Source: a virus
DNA length: 36,298 nt
IMG/VR virus record: IMGVR_UViG_3300009537_000078
Coordinates: 1 to 36,298 of that record
Strand: one strand, 5' to 3'
Under the pieces are notes generated by a model. The model was not told the DNA's origin and ran no database searches. It saw nothing but the letters and a program-made list of their open reading frames with translations. Shown in pieces: positions 336-33,181 of the stretch. The position numbers and the translations under genes were made by a program. Numbering within the stretch: the stretch's first letter is position 1; the number at the start of each line of letters is the position of its first letter.

Positions 336-652
336 AGCTTGGCTAAGATTAGACTACTCTCCTAATATAACTTAACTTAATTCCCCCACGCTAATTTCTC
401 ACCGACAACGTGGCAGAAAATCGTTCACCTTGCGGTTGGAGTTTTGCCTTCTTGATTCTTTGGTCTTGTCATAGAGCATGGCCTGACTCGTCTAGCACGG
501 CTATCTTGAGCCGTTCAAAGCTAGTCCACAGATTACACACCCGTGAAACCCGATTCCCCGCCACCGGAACGTCCTCTCCGGCTAGGTAGTGGGCCGTTAT
601 GATCCAACTTCAAGGCAAGGATCGACGCGGCGCGTCATTAGCACCTATCGGT

Positions 653-1872: not shown

Positions 1873-2289
1873 ATGCCGACCCTACGTCAAAAAGCACTCG
1901 CTAGAGCCCTCGCAGAAAACGCATCGTCTGGCAACCCAAAGACCAAGGGTGAGATCTTGGTAAGTATTGGTTACTCCCCAGCGACAGCAACAGGAATACC
2001 CAAGGAGATAATTGAGGCTAAGGGTACACAAGAAGCATTGATAGCTTTGGGTTTCACAGAAGGAAACGCCAAGATGGTGGTAAGCGAGATTTTGATGAAT
2101 CCTGAAGAGAAGGCTCACGATAGACTCGACGCCGCAGACAAGATTTTCAAGTTTCATGGTTCATACGCGCCCGAGAAGAGCGAGAACATTAATTACAATC
2201 TCAACAGGAATATAGACCCGGTTCAAGCCGCTCTTTTAGCTGAATACGAGGAAAAATTACGTGGTAAACTTTCGGATGGAGTTCAGTAA
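1873..2289 (+). CDS. terS: Terminase small subunit (putative)
   Basis: 138 aa, directly upstream of and overlapping the large terminase. The N-terminal half has the helix-turn-helix character of phage small terminases (ILVSIGYSPATATGIPKEII and a second repeat ALIALGFTEGNAKMVV). A later segment, RLDAADKIFKFHGSYAPEK, matches the conserved region of many small terminase-like proteins just before the oligomerisation tail. Its expected role is recognition of the packaging start and recruitment of the large subunit. Position and overall shape support the call more than any single residue. Confidence 0.75.
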   Translation: MPTLRQKALARALAENASSGNPKTKGEILVSIGYSPATATGIPKEIIEAKGTQEALIALGFTEGNAKMVVSEILMNPEEKAHDRLDAADKIFKFHGSYAPEKSENINYNLNRNIDPVQAALLAEYEEKLRGKLSDGVQ

Positions 2290-3865
2290 ATTATCACCGC
2301 ACGCGTTCATCCAAGAGCACGGCCTAGTCACGGAGACTGGCCAGCCTTACTCGTTCCGGAATCACCTCTTCCTCTTTGACATCCTTAGGGACTACACGCC
2401 TAACCAAGTTATCCTGAAAGCCGCACAGGTGGGTTTTTCAACGCTAGCCATCGTCAAGAGCCTATGGTTAGCCAAGAACAGGGGGATGGATATCATCTAC
2501 ACCTTGCCGACATCGAACGACATCAACGACTTTGTTGGCGGCAAGGTCAACCGGCTCATATCACAGAATCCTGTCTTCCAAGAGTTCGTCAAAGACAAAG
2601 ATACCATCGAGCAAAAGCGCGTAGGCAACAACCTAATCTATTACCGCGGGACCTGGGTAGAGAAGGCCGCGCTCATGGTCAGCTCCGACCTTAACATCCA
2701 CGACGAGGAGGATCGATCCAAGCCCGAGGTCGTAGCACAGTACAGCTCCCGTCTTCAGCACTCACCCCACAAGTGGACATGGCACTTTTCAAACCCATCG
2801 ACCCCGGGCCATGGAGTGTCCGCCTATTGGGACCGTAGCGATCGTAAAGAGTGGTTCATCACTTGCAGGGAATGCAGGACTCAACAGATGCTCGTCTGGC
2901 CTAGCTCCATCGACAGAGTCCTCCAGGTGTACGTCTGCAAGGCTTGTAAACGCCCTATAAGCGACGAAGAGCGTCGTGTTGGTGTATGGAGGCCTACAGC
3001 CCCGATAACCTCGGAAAAAGGCCTTAGTGAGCCTTTCAGTGGTTACCACATTAGTCTCCTTATGGCACCATGGGTGTCAGCAGCCGAAATACTAAATTAT
3101 GCAGATACTAAAAGCGCGGAGTTTTTTCACAACTTCGTCCTCGGGCTACCGTACGTCGGGGAAGGCAACACCGTCACGGAGGATATCTTCACACGCAATT
3201 TCACAAAGAAGGTCAACTCACAAGAGAACGTCATCATTGGGTGCGATTCAGGACTCAAAAAGCATTACGTCCTCGGTAACCGTGAAGGTCTGTTTTACTA
3301 CGGTGTCACCGAGACGTGGGCCGACATTGAAGCTTATCTTAGACGTTTTAAGGGGTCGGTCGCAGTGATAGATGCACTCCCTGATCTCACTGGACCTAGG
3401 GAATTAAGAGAAAAATACCCCGGGAGGGTATTCTTGGTCAGTTATTCCAAGGATCGCAAGACCATGCAGTTACTTCGCTGGGGTGAAGGTAGCGAGGCCG
3501 GCCACGTCAACGCAGACAGGAATAGGCTAATCCAGATGGTCATCGATGACTTCGCCACCGAGCGCGTCCCCCTTCAGGGCACCGCTGGTGATTGGCAGGA
3601 CTATATCTCCCATTGGAAGACTCTTTATCGCGTGACCGACAAGGACATTGTTGGCAATCCGACGTCCATATGGGAGACAAGCAACGGCATGGATCACTGG
3701 TGTCATGCAACCTGCTATTATCGTATCGGCATGGATCGTTTTGGAAGAGGGGCAGGGAAGATATTCACAGATTCCCCACCACCGTTCTATGAGCGAGGAG
3801 TCGAGATTCAGCCCGATCAGACATCGAGTTTCTATCAATTGCCAGATAAGAATCAAGTATGGTGA
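2276..3865 (+). CDS. terL: Terminase large subunit (packaging ATPase/nuclease)
   Basis: 529 aa from the ATG at 2276, which overlaps the small terminase by 14 bases; a GTG at 2261 is a less likely start. The ATPase part has the Walker-A-like AAQVGFST (about residues 49-56) and an acidic HDEEDRS (about 142-148) in the Walker B position. A zinc ribbon formed by CREC (197-200) and CKAC (221-224) is typical of GpA-type terminases. The C-terminal nuclease part has candidate metal-binding aspartates in GCDSG (about 324), VIDALPD (about 366) and GMDHW (about 474). It packages DNA into the procapsid through the portal at 4215. Confidence 0.92.
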   Translation: MEFSKLSPHAFIQEHGLVTETGQPYSFRNHLFLFDILRDYTPNQVILKAAQVGFSTLAIVKSLWLAKNRGMDIIYTLPTSNDINDFVGGKVNRLISQNPVFQEFVKDKDTIEQKRVGNNLIYYRGTWVEKAALMVSSDLNIHDEEDRSKPEVVAQYSSRLQHSPHKWTWHFSNPSTPGHGVSAYWDRSDRKEWFITCRECRTQQMLVWPSSIDRVLQVYVCKACKRPISDEERRVGVWRPTAPITSEKGLSEPFSGYHISLLMAPWVSAAEILNYADTKSAEFFHNFVLGLPYVGEGNTVTEDIFTRNFTKKVNSQENVIIGCDSGLKKHYVLGNREGLFYYGVTETWADIEAYLRRFKGSVAVIDALPDLTGPRELREKYPGRVFLVSYSKDRKTMQLLRWGEGSEAGHVNADRNRLIQMVIDDFATERVPLQGTAGDWQDYISHWKTLYRVTDKDIVGNPTSIWETSNGMDHWCHATCYYRIGMDRFGRGAGKIFTDSPPPFYERGVEIQPDQTSSFYQLPDKNQVW

Positions 3866-4056
3866 AACTAGAACTTACTGACGAGGACGCCTTCCTGTTC
3901 CAGAAGTTTAGGCAGCATCAGGATGCATTCAACCGCATAACGATGTCCCGAGTCTTCGACATCAGGGGCGGCAGTGCCGTGATTCACTTCGACCACGATG
4001 GCAACATCATGCGGATAGACAGGAACGATCGGATATTCGATTTGACAAAACGCTGA
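3859..4056 (+). CDS. Small hypothetical protein, 65 aa
   Basis: Overlaps the end of the terminase gene by seven bases. It is an alpha/beta mini-protein: an acidic N-terminus (KLELTDEDAFLFQKFRQH) then strands with IRGGSAVIHFDHDGNI. Proteins of this type occur beside phage terminases, but their function is not known to me. Its last codons contain the -35 box of the promoter at 4042, so the coding end and the regulatory signal share DNA. Confidence 0.65.
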   Translation: MVKLELTDEDAFLFQKFRQHQDAFNRITMSRVFDIRGGSAVIHFDHDGNIMRIDRNDRIFDLTKR

Positions 4057-4070
4057 TTAAGTGGTATTAT
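4042..4070 (+). promoter_or_regulatory. Sigma-70 promoter of structured RNA 2
   Basis: Perfect -35 TTGACA (4042-4047), 17-bp spacer and -10 TATTAT (4065-4070), close to consensus throughout. The -35 lies inside the end of the preceding gene. The -35 and the following bases match the promoter at 1080 almost exactly. The expected start is near 4077. Confidence 0.85.
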
Positions 4071-4076
4071 CTTGTC

Positions 4077-4209
4077 GTTAGAGCCCTAACCCTAGGAGGT
4101 CTGAAATAAGGCCGAACCATCGGCGGGCCGGAATCTGCTGTTAGAGAAAAGTAGTCAAGTTAGAGGACTTGCCGGAATTCTCGACGGTGGATTCTGGCCC
4201 GTCTTTTTG
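4077..4209 (+). ncRNA. Structured RNA 2 between terminase and portal genes
   Basis: About 130 nt with no ORF. It begins with a hairpin (GTTAG 4077-4081 with CTAAC 4086-4090), then GCCG/CGGC (4111-4114/4121-4124). A long closing stem follows: CGGGCCGGAATC (4124-4135) pairs with GATTCTGGCCCG (4190-4201), 12 bp with one G-T pair. Inside it are CAAGT/ACTTG (4156-4160/4167-4171) and a possible GAGAA/TTCTC pairing (4144-4148/4178-4182), giving a branched fold. The T-rich TCTTTTTG tail makes it a terminator. The portal ATG is five bases further on. It could be a free small RNA, a packaging RNA, or an attenuator of the late operon. Confidence 0.7.
4190..4209 (+). terminator. Intrinsic terminator closing structured RNA 2
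   Basis: The 3' strand of the 12-bp stem (4190-4201) is followed directly by TCTTTTTG. The stem encloses a 54-base branched loop rather than a small one, which is unusual for a simple terminator and suggests the fold itself has a role. Confidence 0.6.
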
Positions 4210-4214
4210 TATCT

Positions 4215-6038
4215 ATGGCAGATTTTACGAGCGGTTATTTCTCGCTCAAGCAGAACGTCAACAAGACGCAGACCGATCCAGATAAACGTGAACGCATGGA
4301 GGGGATGGTCAGTGAGCTAATCCCCGAACTGTCGTTGAAAGTCTCTGATGACGATCTGATTAAGCTCAAGAAGCAGTGGGAGAAGGACTGGGAAAAAGAC
4401 CGCTCCCTGCTCGAGAGGAGACAGAAGGAAAACGAAAAGTACTGGCTAGGCAAGTCATATTTTGACACTAGCCAGGAAGAGAAGGATAAGCCAATCCCCG
4501 ACAATCTTGTTTTCGAGGCCGTCGAGACTTTCATACCGTTAGCTACTCGCCAGAATCCCGAGGCGATGGTCTTAACCGACGATACCGAGCAGGGTCAAGC
4601 ACTAGCCGATAAGGTCAAGAAGATACTCTCATACCAAGCGGACAGGTTGGCTATTAAGCTTTCAATCAAGCAGGCCACAAGATATTGGCTCCTGTACTTC
4701 TTAGGTTGCATCAAGGTCGGATGGAACAAAATCGAGAACGATATCGACATCTCGGTTCTTAGGCCCCAGAAGCTCATCCTGGACCCGAACAGTGAGATAT
4801 TCCGCGGTGTCTATAAAGGCGCGTTCATCGGAGAAATCAAGGAAGACAAGGCATCAACCCTAGCAGCAAGATACCCTGGTAAAAAGACCGAGATTGAAGC
4901 CTCTTGCAAGGGGAAGATGGCAACTAAGATTCATTACAAAGAATGGTGGACCAATGAGTATGTCTTCTGGACCCTAGAGGACTCTGTGCTTGATAAAGCC
5001 AAAAACCCTCACTGGAACTATGAGACTCCCAGACAAGTGATAGACGACTTCGGAAACGTCACCGAGACGATTGAAAAGGGTAACAACCATTTCTCGGTCC
5101 CGCAGATGCCCTACGTCTTCTTGAACGCCTTCAGTCTCGGAAGGAAGCCCTATGACGAGACCAACATGTTGCACCAAGTGCTTTATCTCCAAGACGTCGC
5201 ACAGCGTCGTTTCGAACAGATAGACAGGAACGCTGACTCCATGAACGGAGGGCTCGCGGTATCCGGCGACGCTTTCACCAAAGACCAAGCCGCCCAGTTA
5301 TCCGAAGCTGTCAGGAAGGGCGGGACTGTCTGGGTACCACGCGGACGCGTCGAGGATGCCATTCAGAGGCTCACGGCGCAATCGCTGCCCTCGGATGTTT
5401 ATCAGAACGAAATTGATATCAGGCGCAGGGTCCAGGACATTTTCGGCATTACCGGATCTAGCGCAGGCGGTATTCAGAAGGAGAGGACGGTACGTGGGAA
5501 AGTCTTACAGACGAGCAAGGATACGGATCGCATCGGAGGCGGAGTAGGTGAAAACATCGAGCAGTTTGCCGATAGGCTTTACAACTGGCTCGTGCAAATC
5601 ATGTACGTCTATTATGACGAACCTCACGCTGCTGCAATCATCGGCCAGGAACGTGCCGTCGAGTATATAAACATCAAGAACTCCGACTTCAACCGGAAGA
5701 TAACGGTCTCGATCAAGGAAGGCTCGCTCTTGCCCAAAGACTCGATGAGCAAGCGGAATGAGGCAGTGGAACTCTTCAGTGCCGGTGCACTGGACCCCGT
5801 GACTCTTTTCGACCGTCTCGAGTTTCCTAACCCGCGGGAGACGGCACAAAGACTTATTATGTGGAAGCTTAACCCCTCTGCTCTGCTCCAGGGCGCACAA
5901 CCTAACATACCAGGAGGATCGGAACCCATGCCGTCCCAGATGGCTCCCCAGATGGCTCCTCCGCTTGAAACTCCCCAACCACCACCCGAAGTTTTAGTAC
6001 CTGAAACACAACAATTAAGCCAAGTTCCCATCCAATAA
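4215..6038 (+). CDS. Portal protein (head-tail connector)
   Basis: 607 aa, the usual size for podovirus portals. The N-terminal third is highly charged and helical. The core has typical portal features: YWLLYFLGCIKVGWNK, RPQKLILDP, and a long helix region (LYLQDVAQRRFEQIDRNADSMN) leading to FGITGSSAGG. The C-terminal 50 residues are Pro/Gln/Met-rich and probably disordered. It should form the dodecameric ring at one capsid vertex through which the terminase pumps DNA. Directly upstream is the terminator of RNA 2, so expression may depend on read-through. Confidence 0.9.
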   Translation: MADFTSGYFSLKQNVNKTQTDPDKRERMEGMVSELIPELSLKVSDDDLIKLKKQWEKDWEKDRSLLERRQKENEKYWLGKSYFDTSQEEKDKPIPDNLVFEAVETFIPLATRQNPEAMVLTDDTEQGQALADKVKKILSYQADRLAIKLSIKQATRYWLLYFLGCIKVGWNKIENDIDISVLRPQKLILDPNSEIFRGVYKGAFIGEIKEDKASTLAARYPGKKTEIEASCKGKMATKIHYKEWWTNEYVFWTLEDSVLDKAKNPHWNYETPRQVIDDFGNVTETIEKGNNHFSVPQMPYVFLNAFSLGRKPYDETNMLHQVLYLQDVAQRRFEQIDRNADSMNGGLAVSGDAFTKDQAAQLSEAVRKGGTVWVPRGRVEDAIQRLTAQSLPSDVYQNEIDIRRRVQDIFGITGSSAGGIQKERTVRGKVLQTSKDTDRIGGGVGENIEQFADRLYNWLVQIMYVYYDEPHAAAIIGQERAVEYINIKNSDFNRKITVSIKEGSLLPKDSMSKRNEAVELFSAGALDPVTLFDRLEFPNPRETAQRLIMWKLNPSALLQGAQPNIPGGSEPMPSQMAPQMAPPLETPQPPPEVLVPETQQLSQVPIQ

Positions 6039-6277: not shown

Positions 6278-7051
6278 ATGCCCGAAGAATCATTGGCGAA
6301 CCTGGTAGGTGCGACCCAAGAGGGGACGCAAGCCTTCCAAGAAGAGGAGAAAGAGACTCCTCCCGCCCCGCCAGCGGAAGAAAAAACTACTGAAGAAGTC
6401 ACGCCTGCCTCCGGAGGCGAAGAGGACAAAGCAAGTGCCGAGTCCACCGATGAAGAACCTTCTCACGAGATACCGGAGAAGAGATTCAGGAAAGTGATCG
6501 CCGAACGGAACGAACTCCGCGAACGTATCGCTGAACTGGAGACTCTCAAACAGGAGATCGAGGCGCTGAAGAAAAGCGCCCCTAAACCTGCTGAACCTAT
6601 CCCCGACTGGTTCACCGAATCGTTCGGAGAGAACCCCGAGCTTTGGGGCAAGTATCGCACTTATGAGGAACAGCGTTATGCAGCCATACAACAGGCCGCC
6701 GAACGCAGAACTCAAGAGACGTTGAAAGCGGAACGAGAAGAGGCAAATAAATGGGAAGGATGGGTTAAGGGTCGGCTGGATAAGCTTGCTGCCAGTGGCC
6801 TTGAATTCGACCGCAACCGATTGCTTAAAGTGGCTCTCGATTATGCTCCGTCAGATGACGATGGCAATATCGACTTCGAAAAGGCTTATAAACTCATGGT
6901 TAAGTTCGACCATAGCGACAAGCATGAGAGAACCGAAGCTAAAAAGAAGATCGCCACACTTACCGCTCCATCAGGTACTGAACCCGAGGCACAGGAGTTT
7001 GTCACCGATGCCGATCTCAAAAAACTTAGATGGGGTTCTATCACTATTTAA
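6278..7051 (+). CDS. Scaffolding protein (putative)
   Basis: 257 aa, placed between portal and capsid genes as scaffolds usually are. The N-terminal third is acidic, Glu/Pro/Thr-rich and probably disordered. A coiled coil covers about residues 65-105 (RFRKVIAERNELRERIAELETLK and onward), followed by a second helical stretch rich in Glu, Ala and Arg. No catalytic motif is seen. It likely guides capsid assembly and is lost from the mature head. Confidence 0.75.
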   Translation: MPEESLANLVGATQEGTQAFQEEEKETPPAPPAEEKTTEEVTPASGGEEDKASAESTDEEPSHEIPEKRFRKVIAERNELRERIAELETLKQEIEALKKSAPKPAEPIPDWFTESFGENPELWGKYRTYEEQRYAAIQQAAERRTQETLKAEREEANKWEGWVKGRLDKLAASGLEFDRNRLLKVALDYAPSDDDGNIDFEKAYKLMVKFDHSDKHERTEAKKKIATLTAPSGTEPEAQEFVTDADLKKLRWGSITI

Positions 7052-7060
7052 TCTAAACTT

Positions 7061-8086
7061 ATGGCGTTTGGTAATCGTATTCAGACGACCCTCCGGAGCA
7101 AACTGCTTCCCAAGGTCGTAGACTCCGTCCTCAATAGCAATGTCCTTGCCACCAGGATGCTCTCGAAAGCTAAGAAATGGTCGGGTCAGAAGCTCCAGGT
7201 CCCGGTTAAGATCTCCGCCAATGCAAACGGCAAGTCTTTCTCTGGCATGGACACCTTCTCAACTTCCGCTGTCGACAACCGCGTGCTCGCAGAGTTCAGC
7301 CCTTCTTTTTTGGAAATGCCCTCCGTCCTGCCTCTCGATGAGTTGTCAGTCAACGCGAAATCTTCCCCGGAAGAAGCCATCATCAACCTGATGGAAGTCA
7401 CCCTGGAATCTGATTCGCAGGATCTCGCCGACCTTGTCGGCTCCCAGTTCTATGGCGACGGTACAGGTAACTCTGGGAAGGATCTTCTCGGACTCGCAGC
7501 GGCCGTCGACGATGGCACTTCGGTCCCGACTTATGGCGGTCTAACCCGCTCGACCTATACGACCTGGAAGGCCACCAAGACTGCCTCTGGCGGCACTATC
7601 ACCCTCGACAAGATGGCTGCTCTCCATGATGCGGTCACCTCTGGCACCCAGTCACCGACCATCGGTGTAACCACTAAGGCTGTCTTCTCACTGTTTGAAA
7701 AACTCATGCAGGCCCAGGAAAAGATCGAAAAGTCGGTCCAGATGATGAAGGACGGTCTGATCATGGGTACTGGCGCGACGGGTCTTTACTACAGGGGCTT
7801 CCAGATTGTCTCTGATGAGAAATGCCCCTCCGGCTCACTGTACTTCCTGAACGAGACCTTCATCGACTGGTATGCCCTGCCAATGGCCGAGTCTGAACCG
7901 ATCCGCTACAAGAAGCAGATTGAAGGCAACGACTACTCCGATGTCATGGGCCTTGGCTTCTCGTTCTCCGGTTGGATCAAGCCGACCAACGCCGCTGCGC
8001 TCATCGGTCACCACTTCCTCGGCGGTCAGCTCGTCTGCCGCAATCCGAAGCGCCAGGGTGTTCTTTCAGGGATAAGTTCAGTCTAG
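7061..8086 (+). CDS. Major capsid protein
   Basis: 341 aa. The order portal-scaffold-capsid and the sequence style (an N-terminal arm, then repeated strand-rich segments such as VPVKISANANGKSF and LVGSQFYGDGTGNSGKDLLGLAAAVDD) fit an HK97-fold coat protein without a protease domain. The FYGDGTG...LLGL...V pattern is common in such coat proteins. The gene uses C/G-ending codons more heavily than its neighbours, consistent with high expression. A 7-bp hairpin directly follows the stop. Confidence 0.87.
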   Translation: MAFGNRIQTTLRSKLLPKVVDSVLNSNVLATRMLSKAKKWSGQKLQVPVKISANANGKSFSGMDTFSTSAVDNRVLAEFSPSFLEMPSVLPLDELSVNAKSSPEEAIINLMEVTLESDSQDLADLVGSQFYGDGTGNSGKDLLGLAAAVDDGTSVPTYGGLTRSTYTTWKATKTASGGTITLDKMAALHDAVTSGTQSPTIGVTTKAVFSLFEKLMQAQEKIEKSVQMMKDGLIMGTGATGLYYRGFQIVSDEKCPSGSLYFLNETFIDWYALPMAESEPIRYKKQIEGNDYSDVMGLGFSFSGWIKPTNAAALIGHHFLGGQLVCRNPKRQGVLSGISSV

Positions 8087-31176: not shown

Positions 31177-31329
31177 TCAGACCCTTCCCTTTGATAAGGC
31201 TTTGTCTATCTCCCTTCTAATCCAATCGGAGAAGGTCATGTCGTTGACGTAGAGAAGAAGGAAGAAGTCCTTTTTCTTCTTCCGGTCGATGAAGACGCGG
31301 CTTTCAACGTAGTCGATAAGTTTTTTCAT
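31177..31329 (-). CDS. Small RHH-like DNA-binding protein, 50 aa
   Basis: A basic N-terminal segment (ESRVFIDRKKKKDFFLLL) leads to YVNDMTFSDWIRREIDKAL, shaped like the strand-helix-helix part of ribbon-helix-helix repressors. The start overlaps the HNH gene stop (ATGA), so it is coupled to it. DNA binding and regulation are inferred from shape only. Confidence 0.5.
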   Translation of the reverse strand: MKKLIDYVESRVFIDRKKKKDFFLLLYVNDMTFSDWIRREIDKALSKGRV

Positions 31330-31697
31330 AGGCTTTTCAGATAGGCTTTCGCTGTAAGGAGTTCCATAATTTTGTCTTTCTTTTTATACAGATGTACTCG
31401 GATTATGAGAGCGGAGTGGCATGCTTCGCCTAATTGCTTCTTCTTGAAGGCGATATATTCTTCACGGTAGTCGCCGCCCCATCGTCTATGGCAATTGGCA
31501 CAGAGAGCGTCGCAATTCTCGGGGTCGAACCTGGTATTACGATTGCTCCGTGAGTAATAGTGGGAACATTGTAGTCCGATGATGCCTTTGCCTCCTTCTC
31601 CGGGCCGGCCGCAGGCCACGCACTTCTTATCCCGTCTCCTGATGAATTCGGAGAAGTAGCGGTCGGCAGGTTCTATGCGTATGCTGTTCCAGCCCAT
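31326..31697 (-). CDS. HNH nuclease, NinG-like, 123 aa
   Basis: Has CVACGRPGEGG (zinc), then LQCSHYYSRSNRNTRFDPEN and CDALCANCHRRWGG. The C-x-x-C, H, N-C and C-x-x-C-H layout is that of NinG-like/HNH recombination nucleases, small enough to be a single domain. A C-terminal basic helix follows. It starts one base after the DUF6745-like gene (TGATATG) and probably processes recombination intermediates. Confidence 0.75.
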   Translation of the reverse strand: MGWNSIRIEPADRYFSEFIRRRDKKCVACGRPGEGGKGIIGLQCSHYYSRSNRNTRFDPENCDALCANCHRRWGGDYREEYIAFKKKQLGEACHSALIIRVHLYKKKDKIMELLTAKAYLKSL

Positions 31698-31698
31698 A

Positions 31699-32859
31699 TC
31701 AGTTCATATCTTTACCTGGAGTCATAGTCAGCCATCTCTCCGGCGTTGACTGGAATTTCCATGCCATCGCTTCCGCCACTGTCTTACAAGGTCTAACGCC
31801 ACTCATAAATTGTTTGGAGGAACCGGGTACCAGGTCGTCATAGATAGCGTAATAGGCTTTTTCAGTGAAGACGTGGCCTTTGGGAAATTGATAGAGCCAA
31901 TATCTGATGGTCGTCCCGTTGCCGCGTTCTTTGGCACACTCATCTAATTTCTTTCCCTTAGCATATTTTATGAATTCCCATACGTCGCCGAATCGCATCG
32001 CCTGTGTTCGTTGGTCTATGTCTTTGATTGCAAGGATCTCTTTGAATGGCATCTTACCGCTTGTGACTTTGTTGTAGAGATTCTCGTCGAAATAGACTCC
32101 GTTCAGGTGATATAAGCCCCATCCGTCGGGGTATGATATGGATTTGCCTGAAGTGTTATGAAGGAGCCCGCGATCATTGCGGTGTATCTCTTTGGGCCTG
32201 GCGCAGACAATTACAAAATCCCGATTGGGCCACACGTAGTTGACCGACTCGCACACTTTCCTATATGCCTCCGCACGTTCCATCATGTCTTTCGATAATT
32301 TTAACTTGCATACGTCGAAGAAGAAATTAACGAAAGCCACCCCCCAAATACGTCCACCGATCCAAAATTGACCCCCGAGCCAATAATGCCAAGTCAGGCG
32401 TGTTTCCTTTACTGCGGTAGAAACCGCTGATCTAACGGCACCGCTCACGGCATCATTTACGCCGATACTTACTGCGCTATCTATGGCGATACCCACGTTT
32501 ACATCGACAATATCCAACACGGAATCACGAACAGCTTGCCCCACGGCACTACACACAGCACCACCCACTGTATTACCTACGATATCATCCATGACACCGT
32601 CCGCATCGCCATTTTTTCTCAATATCCCTTCTGCTAAAGCTGCTGCAAGACCACCGACTAGGGGAGAGGAAACACGGACGACACGTGTTGGATACTTTAT
32701 ACCCGCCTTCGCATAACAGATGGGCATGTACTTATCGAAAGTGTCCCAGTCGGTCTCACCAGTCTGAAGACCTTTAGCAATCCAGTAATCACGATAAGAA
32801 AAAAGTTGTGTTTCCTGTTCAGGAGTGAGTTCTTTTATATGGACGACAGTTTTAGGCAT
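31699..32859 (-). CDS. DUF6745-like protein with Val/Ala-repeat middle, 386 aa
   Basis: I chose the ATG at 32859 (TGATATG junction). The first 75 residues are helical. Residues about 85-155 form an unusual Val/Ala/Ser/Asp-rich tract with short repeats (for example DSVLDIVDVNVGIAIDSAVS). The C-terminal half contains WPNRDFVIVCARPKEIHRND, then LHNTSGKSISYPDGWGLYHL and YFDENLY, a pattern I associate with DUF6745. Its role is unknown. The gene forms a tight pair with the following small cupin-like partner. Confidence 0.65.
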   Translation of the reverse strand: MPKTVVHIKELTPEQETQLFSYRDYWIAKGLQTGETDWDTFDKYMPICYAKAGIKYPTRVVRVSSPLVGGLAAALAEGILRKNGDADGVMDDIVGNTVGGAVCSAVGQAVRDSVLDIVDVNVGIAIDSAVSIGVNDAVSGAVRSAVSTAVKETRLTWHYWLGGQFWIGGRIWGVAFVNFFFDVCKLKLSKDMMERAEAYRKVCESVNYVWPNRDFVIVCARPKEIHRNDRGLLHNTSGKSISYPDGWGLYHLNGVYFDENLYNKVTSGKMPFKEILAIKDIDQRTQAMRFGDVWEFIKYAKGKKLDECAKERGNGTTIRYWLYQFPKGHVFTEKAYYAIYDDLVPGSSKQFMSGVRPCKTVAEAMAWKFQSTPERWLTMTPGKDMN

Positions 32860-32860
32860 A

Positions 32861-33181
32861 TCAGTCAAGAATACTGCGCTCTAACTTACCGAACCAATCA
32901 TACTCTCGTTCTTTTTCGACCAGATACATGCCTGGTTGGAGAATTATCGGGCCATGCTCTTCATGTATAACGGCAGCCTCTGTCGAGAGATTCAAGAAAA
33001 TCTGGCCATTCAGTGCTCTTACGATTTCCATATCCTCTGGTTTTTCTACGGTAATGACGTGTTTGTGCCCCGTAGTTTCCCCATAAGCAAGGATATAAGA
33101 TCCTTGATGGTTCAACTTCTCTCCCTCGATTTTATCTACGGGATGAAAAGTTACGTCTCCTTGATGGCTGAATTCATTCAT
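32861..33181 (-). CDS. Small beta-rich partner of the DUF6745-like protein, 106 aa
   Basis: Starts MNEFSHQGDVTFHPVDKI and contains YGETTGHKHVI, AVIHEEHGPIILQPGMYLVEKEREYDWFG. The HEEH, GPI, Q-PGMY and REY features are shared by small proteins found beside DUF6745 genes. The histidine-rich strands resemble a cupin-like barrel, so metal binding is possible. One-base junction (TGATATG) to the next gene. Confidence 0.6.
   Translation of the reverse strand: MNEFSHQGDVTFHPVDKIEGEKLNHQGSYILAYGETTGHKHVITVEKPEDMEIVRALNGQIFLNLSTEAAVIHEEHGPIILQPGMYLVEKEREYDWFGKLERSILD

Follow-up and report, generated by a model that had tools for sequence, protein, structure and literature searches.

In phage lambda, the gene for the Q protein is located directly 5' of the late promoter. 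Q controls the late genes; its loading takes place at a sigma-dependent pause and goes through a DNA element (PMC7171158). Antiterminator hairpins of the LicT and ANTAR types are held by a protein and are mutually exclusive with an intrinsic terminator (PMC3369936, PMC8934654). The put RNA of phage HK022 works without a protein: about 70 nt long and folded into two stem-loops, it binds the polymerase and acts on distant terminators (PMC9378689).

We analysed a 36,298-base virus record from IMG/VR, subsequently referred to as the window. Its terminase and portal genes are separated by a promoter, a short leader and an intrinsic terminator, and part of the leader can fold into a second hairpin that shares a strand with the terminator. 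Judging from the sequence, this region is probably a promoter-proximal transcription attenuator of the head, or late, operon. The reading that fits the element best is that of a new RNA family, widespread among uncultured phages.

Promoter, leader and terminator between terminase and portal genes

The plus strand of the window carries, in this order, the genes for the terminase large subunit (TerL), a small protein (SO), the portal, a scaffold-like protein and the major head protein. The features are collected in Table 1.

Table 1. Genes, signals and RNA parts around the start of the head operon (window coordinates).
Feature	Position	Strand	Remarks
TerL (terminase large subunit)	2261..3865	+	PHROG 675, E 2e-85; Pfam GpA_ATPase, E 2e-13
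SO, 64-aa ORF	3862..4056	+	GTG start; overlaps the TerL stop; candidate trans-acting factor
Sigma-70-type promoter	4042..4070	+	TTGACA (4042-4047), 17-nt spacer, TATTAT (4065-4070), TG extension; -35 within the last SO codons
Predicted transcript	4077..4209	+	~130 nt; presumed start ~7 nt after the -10, presumed end in the U-tract
Competing (putative antiterminator) hairpin	4083..4128	+	segment alone folds so, -15.5 kcal/mol; core and P1 covariation in relatives
P1	4083-4086 with 4125-4128		GCCC with GGGC
J1	4087-4089		UAA
P2	4090-4091 with 4122-4123		CC with GG; extended P2 between
J2	4124		C
Intrinsic terminator	4122..4208	+	hairpin 4122-4203, U-tract 4204-4208; 5' base includes P2' and P1'
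Portal gene	4215..6038	+	heads the structural operon; PHROG 156 portal, E 2e-11; weak P22_portal match
Scaffold-like gene	6278..7051	+	3' of portal, same orientation
Major head protein gene	7061..8086	+	3' of portal, same orientation

A preliminary description of this DNA had noted a promoter close to the consensus and a structured RNA ending shortly before the portal gene. The promoter scores 11/12 and is the top promoter-like site of the window between positions 1 and 12000. The leader indeed ends in TCTTTTTG at 4209, and only TATCT stands between it and the portal ATG. The description had also pictured a branched fold. Folding is far beyond chance (-68.9 kcal/mol for 4042-4214, z -5.4, reached by 0/200 shuffles), but branching is not dominant: the transcript forms a single hairpin of 82 nt preceded by small 5' hairpins. 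For the predicted transcript alone we obtained -59.7 kcal/mol (z -5.6), and for the large hairpin, which consists of 21 bp, a 1-nt bulge, 5 bp and an inner 6-bp stem and is followed by TTTTTG, -47.1 kcal/mol (z -7.0).

When the segment of the competing hairpin is folded in isolation, it adopts the form GCCC-UAA-CC...GG-C-GGGC, whose 3' strand is at the same time where the terminator begins. Since the 3' strand of P1 is also the terminator base, the two folds are mutually exclusive. Forcing P1 to form cost 14 kcal/mol, removed the lowest 7 bp of the terminator and moved the remaining stem off the U-tract. In the window, the terminator exceeds the competing hairpin in stability by 32 kcal/mol, which counts against reading the region as an attenuator. 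An additional caveat concerns the growing transcript, in which the 5' leader has a different local pairing (-17.4 kcal/mol) that slightly surpasses the P1 hairpin (-15.5 kcal/mol).

The plus strand holds no promoter-like site above 9/12 between 4071 and 31000, so it seems that some 24 kb of structural genes can be transcribed only if the polymerase gets past the terminator.

Three further observations concern the window as a whole. Most plus-strand genes between 1501 and 26565 have no Shine-Dalgarno-like sequence and show an A/U-rich stretch before the start, yet the promoters are sigma-70-like. A second promoter-terminator leader of about 130 nt occupies 1080-1282 (TGGACA-17-TATCAT, 10/12, with TG). 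It contains a terminator-like hairpin at 1240-1266, is directly followed by a small ORF with a hydrophobic N-terminus at 1282, and is without the consensus of the portal leader. On the minus strand, 31326-31694 encodes a NinG/Rap-like HNH protein, adjoined by a protein with a DUF6745 match at 31699-32865.

Conservation of the RNA core in related phages

Initial scans of IMG/VR returned one portal relative and five TerL relatives, while profile scans with the portal and TerL alignments gave 80 loci each. One relative (L005) has the same layout and a recognisably similar sequence; in two others (L003 and L004) the element is wholly missing. Most of 67 non-redundant gaps of 100-800 bases between TerL and portal show a small ORF and a -10-like promoter; after a short stretch comes a hairpin with a T-run, and the portal ATG stands a few bases beyond it. 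The full layout of a ~65-aa ORF, promoter, short RNA, terminator and portal is shared by about 45 diverged phages of IMG/VR. In the dozens of diverged relatives with such a layout, the portal is 38-53% identical. The distance from hairpin to start codon has a median of 13 nt and is 4-25 nt in most loci. Dozens of related uncultured viruses have kept this arrangement, which therefore probably serves to switch the head genes on and off.

Read by eye, the core follows the consensus P1 - UAA - CC(rAACAay)GG - C - P1', with the rest of the terminator directly after it. The strands of P1 vary together (GCC/GGC, GUC/GAC, GCUC/GAGC, GCUU/AAGC, GUUC/GAAC, CGCC/GGCG and others). In 48 curated elements, picked by eye and with some long variants set apart, P1 formed 3.46 of 4 pairs compared with 2.71 after permutation (highest 3.04), and 18 different inner triplet pairs occurred. 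Cores were also picked blind to P1, by terminator position, P2 and loop only, which guards against choosing pairing registers. These 50 cores gave 3.08 of 4 pairs versus 2.53 permuted, above all 20,000 permutations (highest 2.84). The covariance model R1 gathered 42 matches, and in their alignment, which is biased to its model and includes a few chance matches, both sides of the six pairs had changed in 36 cells, as against 14.7 +/- 3.2 after shuffling (0/500). The covariation score of this alignment was 0.311 versus 0.07-0.15 with the partner slid, and sliding the partner by 1-3 columns lowered the paired cells from 84% to 60% or less. The absence of a conserved stem in relatives had been named beforehand as the result that would speak against a structured RNA; it was looked for, and the structure is conserved.

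The unpaired positions are coupled as well. Among the curated elements, a J1 of 3 nt goes with C as J2 (29 elements) and a J1 of 2 nt with A (13), with 2 exceptions (p 2e-9). Such coupled, conserved unpaired bases are what one would expect of a binding site, and we infer that J1 and J2 form a putative one. A -10-like hexamer (at least 4/6 matches) lies 5' of 47 of the 48 elements. P1' forms the base of a hairpin with a T-rich tail in 47/48, with at least 5 T in 8 bases in 40. Median energies are -5.9 kcal/mol for the competing hairpin and -17.2 kcal/mol for the terminator; the leader has a median length of about 53 nt, and the core measures about 25 nt in the short forms. Two features of an attenuator are an intrinsic terminator between the promoter and the first gene, and a conserved alternative hairpin that shares a strand with this terminator. 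Both are present here. In an attenuator, the frequency of termination would also vary with a signal or factor.

We also ran an exact pattern scan of IMG/VR that was independent of portal and TerL. It revealed the element in front of a portal with no BLASTP relation to that of the window, behind another TerL and an SO (L175). In a second phage the element precedes a scaffold/capsid operon and stands behind an SO, away from TerL (L182). Two phages (L172 and L177) have it before scaffold/capsid and carry a second copy before the portal. A second pattern added a locus with SO, promoter, element and another portal (L207). These contexts (other portals, scaffold/capsid operons, double copies) fit a head-operon switch better than a component of the packaging motor, which they speak against. 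Apart from these two phages, one credible copy was the rule in complete or long records. The remaining pattern matches lay within coding sequence or had no promoter and were judged to be chance hits, and the best model match to a second copy in the window (391-422), with no adjoining promoter or terminator, was likewise taken as chance.

A few loci deviate from the general picture. The core is kept in the portal copy of L177, whose hairpin has no T-tract, and in L107, where the terminator is weak. Four loci (L119, L120, L121 and L124) have neither element nor SO, and their TerL-portal gaps share another structured-looking stretch (CTTGTC..AAAGGTCGTCAG), perhaps a different RNA in the same place. 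In L172 and L177, a gene for a hexapeptide-repeat acetyltransferase-like protein lies between SO and the portal copy. A phage GroEL-like gene is found in L052, in L150 and at the start of L007; in L052 and L150 it is directly 5' of the portal promoter.

As to a possible host, GTDB contigs contain five portal relatives, three of which belong to MAGs labelled Parcubacteria or Jorgensenbacteria, and a TM7 phage is one distant relative. No clear copy of the element was found in these portal relatives or in the TM7 phage; in the TM7 phage and the Manatee Spring phage, both distant portal relatives, there is no room for it between TerL and portal. A search of 380 genomes from the phylum of one MAG that holds a portal relative yielded four weak matches, all of them without a promoter, terminator or phage gene.

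The attenuator reading, its candidate factor and its rivals

According to the attenuator reading, RNA polymerase would start at the 4042-4070 promoter and make a short leader, whose 5' part would form a weak hairpin with the conserved 'UAA...C' internal loop. If this first hairpin were left alone, the stronger terminator would take over its 3' strand and transcription would stop just before the portal gene, leaving an RNA of about 130 nt. If a factor held the first hairpin, the base of the terminator would be blocked and the polymerase could read through into the portal, scaffold, capsid and tail genes. Since the terminator is stronger than the first hairpin, transcription would be expected to stop by default, and read-through would need something that favours the weaker fold. 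Termination may be regulated by a bound factor that tips this balance, and SO is possibly that factor.

The distribution of SO, for which the fetched loci contain 58 distinct homologues, follows that of the RNA. Of the 39 loci that carry a curated element, 34 have SO, as do 3 of 50 scored without one (Fisher p 8e-16). Loci related to each other do not represent independent events, and the comparison leaves aside 18 long or weak variants. The three SO loci scored as negative are near-duplicates of element-positive loci. Each of the five element-positive loci without SO carries another small ORF in its place, which showed no similarity to SO in a profile comparison; the RNAs of these loci have GA, UGA or CA as J1 and mostly miss the AACA loop. 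Where genes have been inserted between TerL and portal, SO stays beside TerL and the RNA beside the portal. On these grounds we infer that SO is the leading candidate for the trans-acting factor.

The protein itself gives little hint of its function. An AlphaFold2 model (pLDDT 91) has the order helix-helix-strand-strand, with no fold match in PDB or BFVD and no recognisable RNA-binding fold. The median net charge of 0 lends no support to nucleic-acid binding. A tblastn search of known phages found no match, and comparison with PHROGs gave only marginal matches of unknown function. Given the lack of a fold match and a charge close to zero, we regard the idea that SO is the factor as a lead only. 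It is a tentative proposal, and a somewhat doubtful one, that SO binds the UAA/C leader hairpin and frees the head operon, which would amount to a new kind of late-gene antitermination by a protein and RNA module that moves between otherwise unrelated uncultured phages.

The preliminary description had offered three roles for the RNA. The late-operon attenuator emerges as the best reading, while the genomic contexts disfavour a packaging RNA. The third, a small regulatory RNA, could arise when transcription terminates, although the attenuator does not need it. As an explanation in its own right, it would mean that the promoter and an ordinary strong terminator make a trans-acting sRNA of 50-130 nt, and that the terminator only insulates head genes transcribed from elsewhere. 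The unit is free-standing and sRNA-sized, and its 5' part is conserved. However, in nearly all relatives only a few bases separate the terminator from the first head gene, and it moves with the head genes, not with a constant locus. A competing fold that uses up the terminator base is also unexpected for a plain sRNA, and the operon is without another good plus-strand promoter. We therefore consider this explanation unlikely.

Improbable, too, is a translational leader, in which the hairpin before the start codon would govern how ribosomes gain access or how stable the mRNA is, with the T-run serving as an A/U-rich region for initiation. It would account for the short spacing of hairpin and start codon (4-25 nt in most loci), for the near absence of Shine-Dalgarno sequences and for the two loci, the L177 portal copy and L107, that keep the core without a good T-tract. 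The missing Shine-Dalgarno is not special to the portal, however, because other genes of the window lack it too, and 40 of 47 hairpins are followed by at least 5 T in 8 bases, as in intrinsic terminators.

The attenuator reading invokes a factor on the leader hairpin; a put-like leader would instead bind RNA polymerase and make it resistant to terminators without a phage protein. A structured RNA sits right at the 5' end of a phage transcript here, as it does in HK022 putL (PMC9378689). Yet put has two stem-loops in about 70 nt, acts at a distance and does not overlap a terminator, whereas the ~25-nt core of the short forms shares a terminator strand, which makes this reading quite improbable.

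For a metabolite-sensing riboswitch 5' of the head genes we see very little chance. Conserved unpaired bases and a terminator/antiterminator pair would suit one, but the core is very small, no Rfam riboswitch matched at relaxed E-values, and the element is tied to phage structural operons only, with no credible copy in the 380 genomes of the searched phylum. Hardly credible is a packaging RNA like the phi29 pRNA, acting together with portal and terminase. The position between these two genes in the window phage is in its favour. Against it, the element also stands before scaffold/capsid away from TerL (L182), occurs twice in L172 and in L177, accompanies packaging genes without a BLASTP relation to those of the window (L175), and is missing in close TerL relatives such as L003.

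Comparison with known systems

To our knowledge, how late genes are switched on is unknown for most uncultured phages. Here, dozens of uncultured phages with different packaging genes share a compact, recognisable module of promoter, leader and terminator together with a candidate partner protein, which offers a testable handle on this question. The element would add a new RNA family to Rfam, and in metagenomic phages it would indicate where the head operon begins. Should SO prove to be the factor, it would represent an RNA-dependent antiterminator of very small size that had not been described before.

Rfam 15 gave no gathering match in the window and none up to E 10 in 3900-4300; in seven relatives, it returned only sub-threshold matches of miRNA type or unrelated ones. 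A full-text search of open-access papers found no description of the element. None of the lambda Q, LicT-type, ANTAR and HK022 put systems shares its consensus.

Like the phi29 pRNA, the element is a phage RNA encoded near packaging genes. Unlike it, it extends beyond the neighbourhood of terminase and portal, can be present twice in one phage and has no Rfam match. With HK022 put it has in common a phage leader RNA linked to terminator read-through, but here the short forms have a core of only about 25 nt, and the terminator that it overlaps is its own.

The sites of LicT/BglG and of the ANTAR protein EutV resemble the element in that a small hairpin is mutually exclusive with an intrinsic terminator. 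ANTAR sites differ in having dual hexaloops with A1 and G4, in contrast to the single hairpin found here, with a loop such as rAACAay and a UAA/C internal loop. The window proteins that were scanned showed no domain of the ANTAR or LicT type, although an ANTAR protein might be supplied by the host, and none of about 25 scanned against Pfam and/or PHROGs matched the Q family. The likeness to lambda pR'-tR' is one of layout: in both cases a late promoter is followed by a short leader and a terminator that has to be passed before the head genes, and the gene of a regulator, Q there and the candidate SO here, lies directly 5' of the promoter. The two differ in that Q uses a DNA element, whereas here it is an RNA hairpin overlapping the terminator that is conserved.
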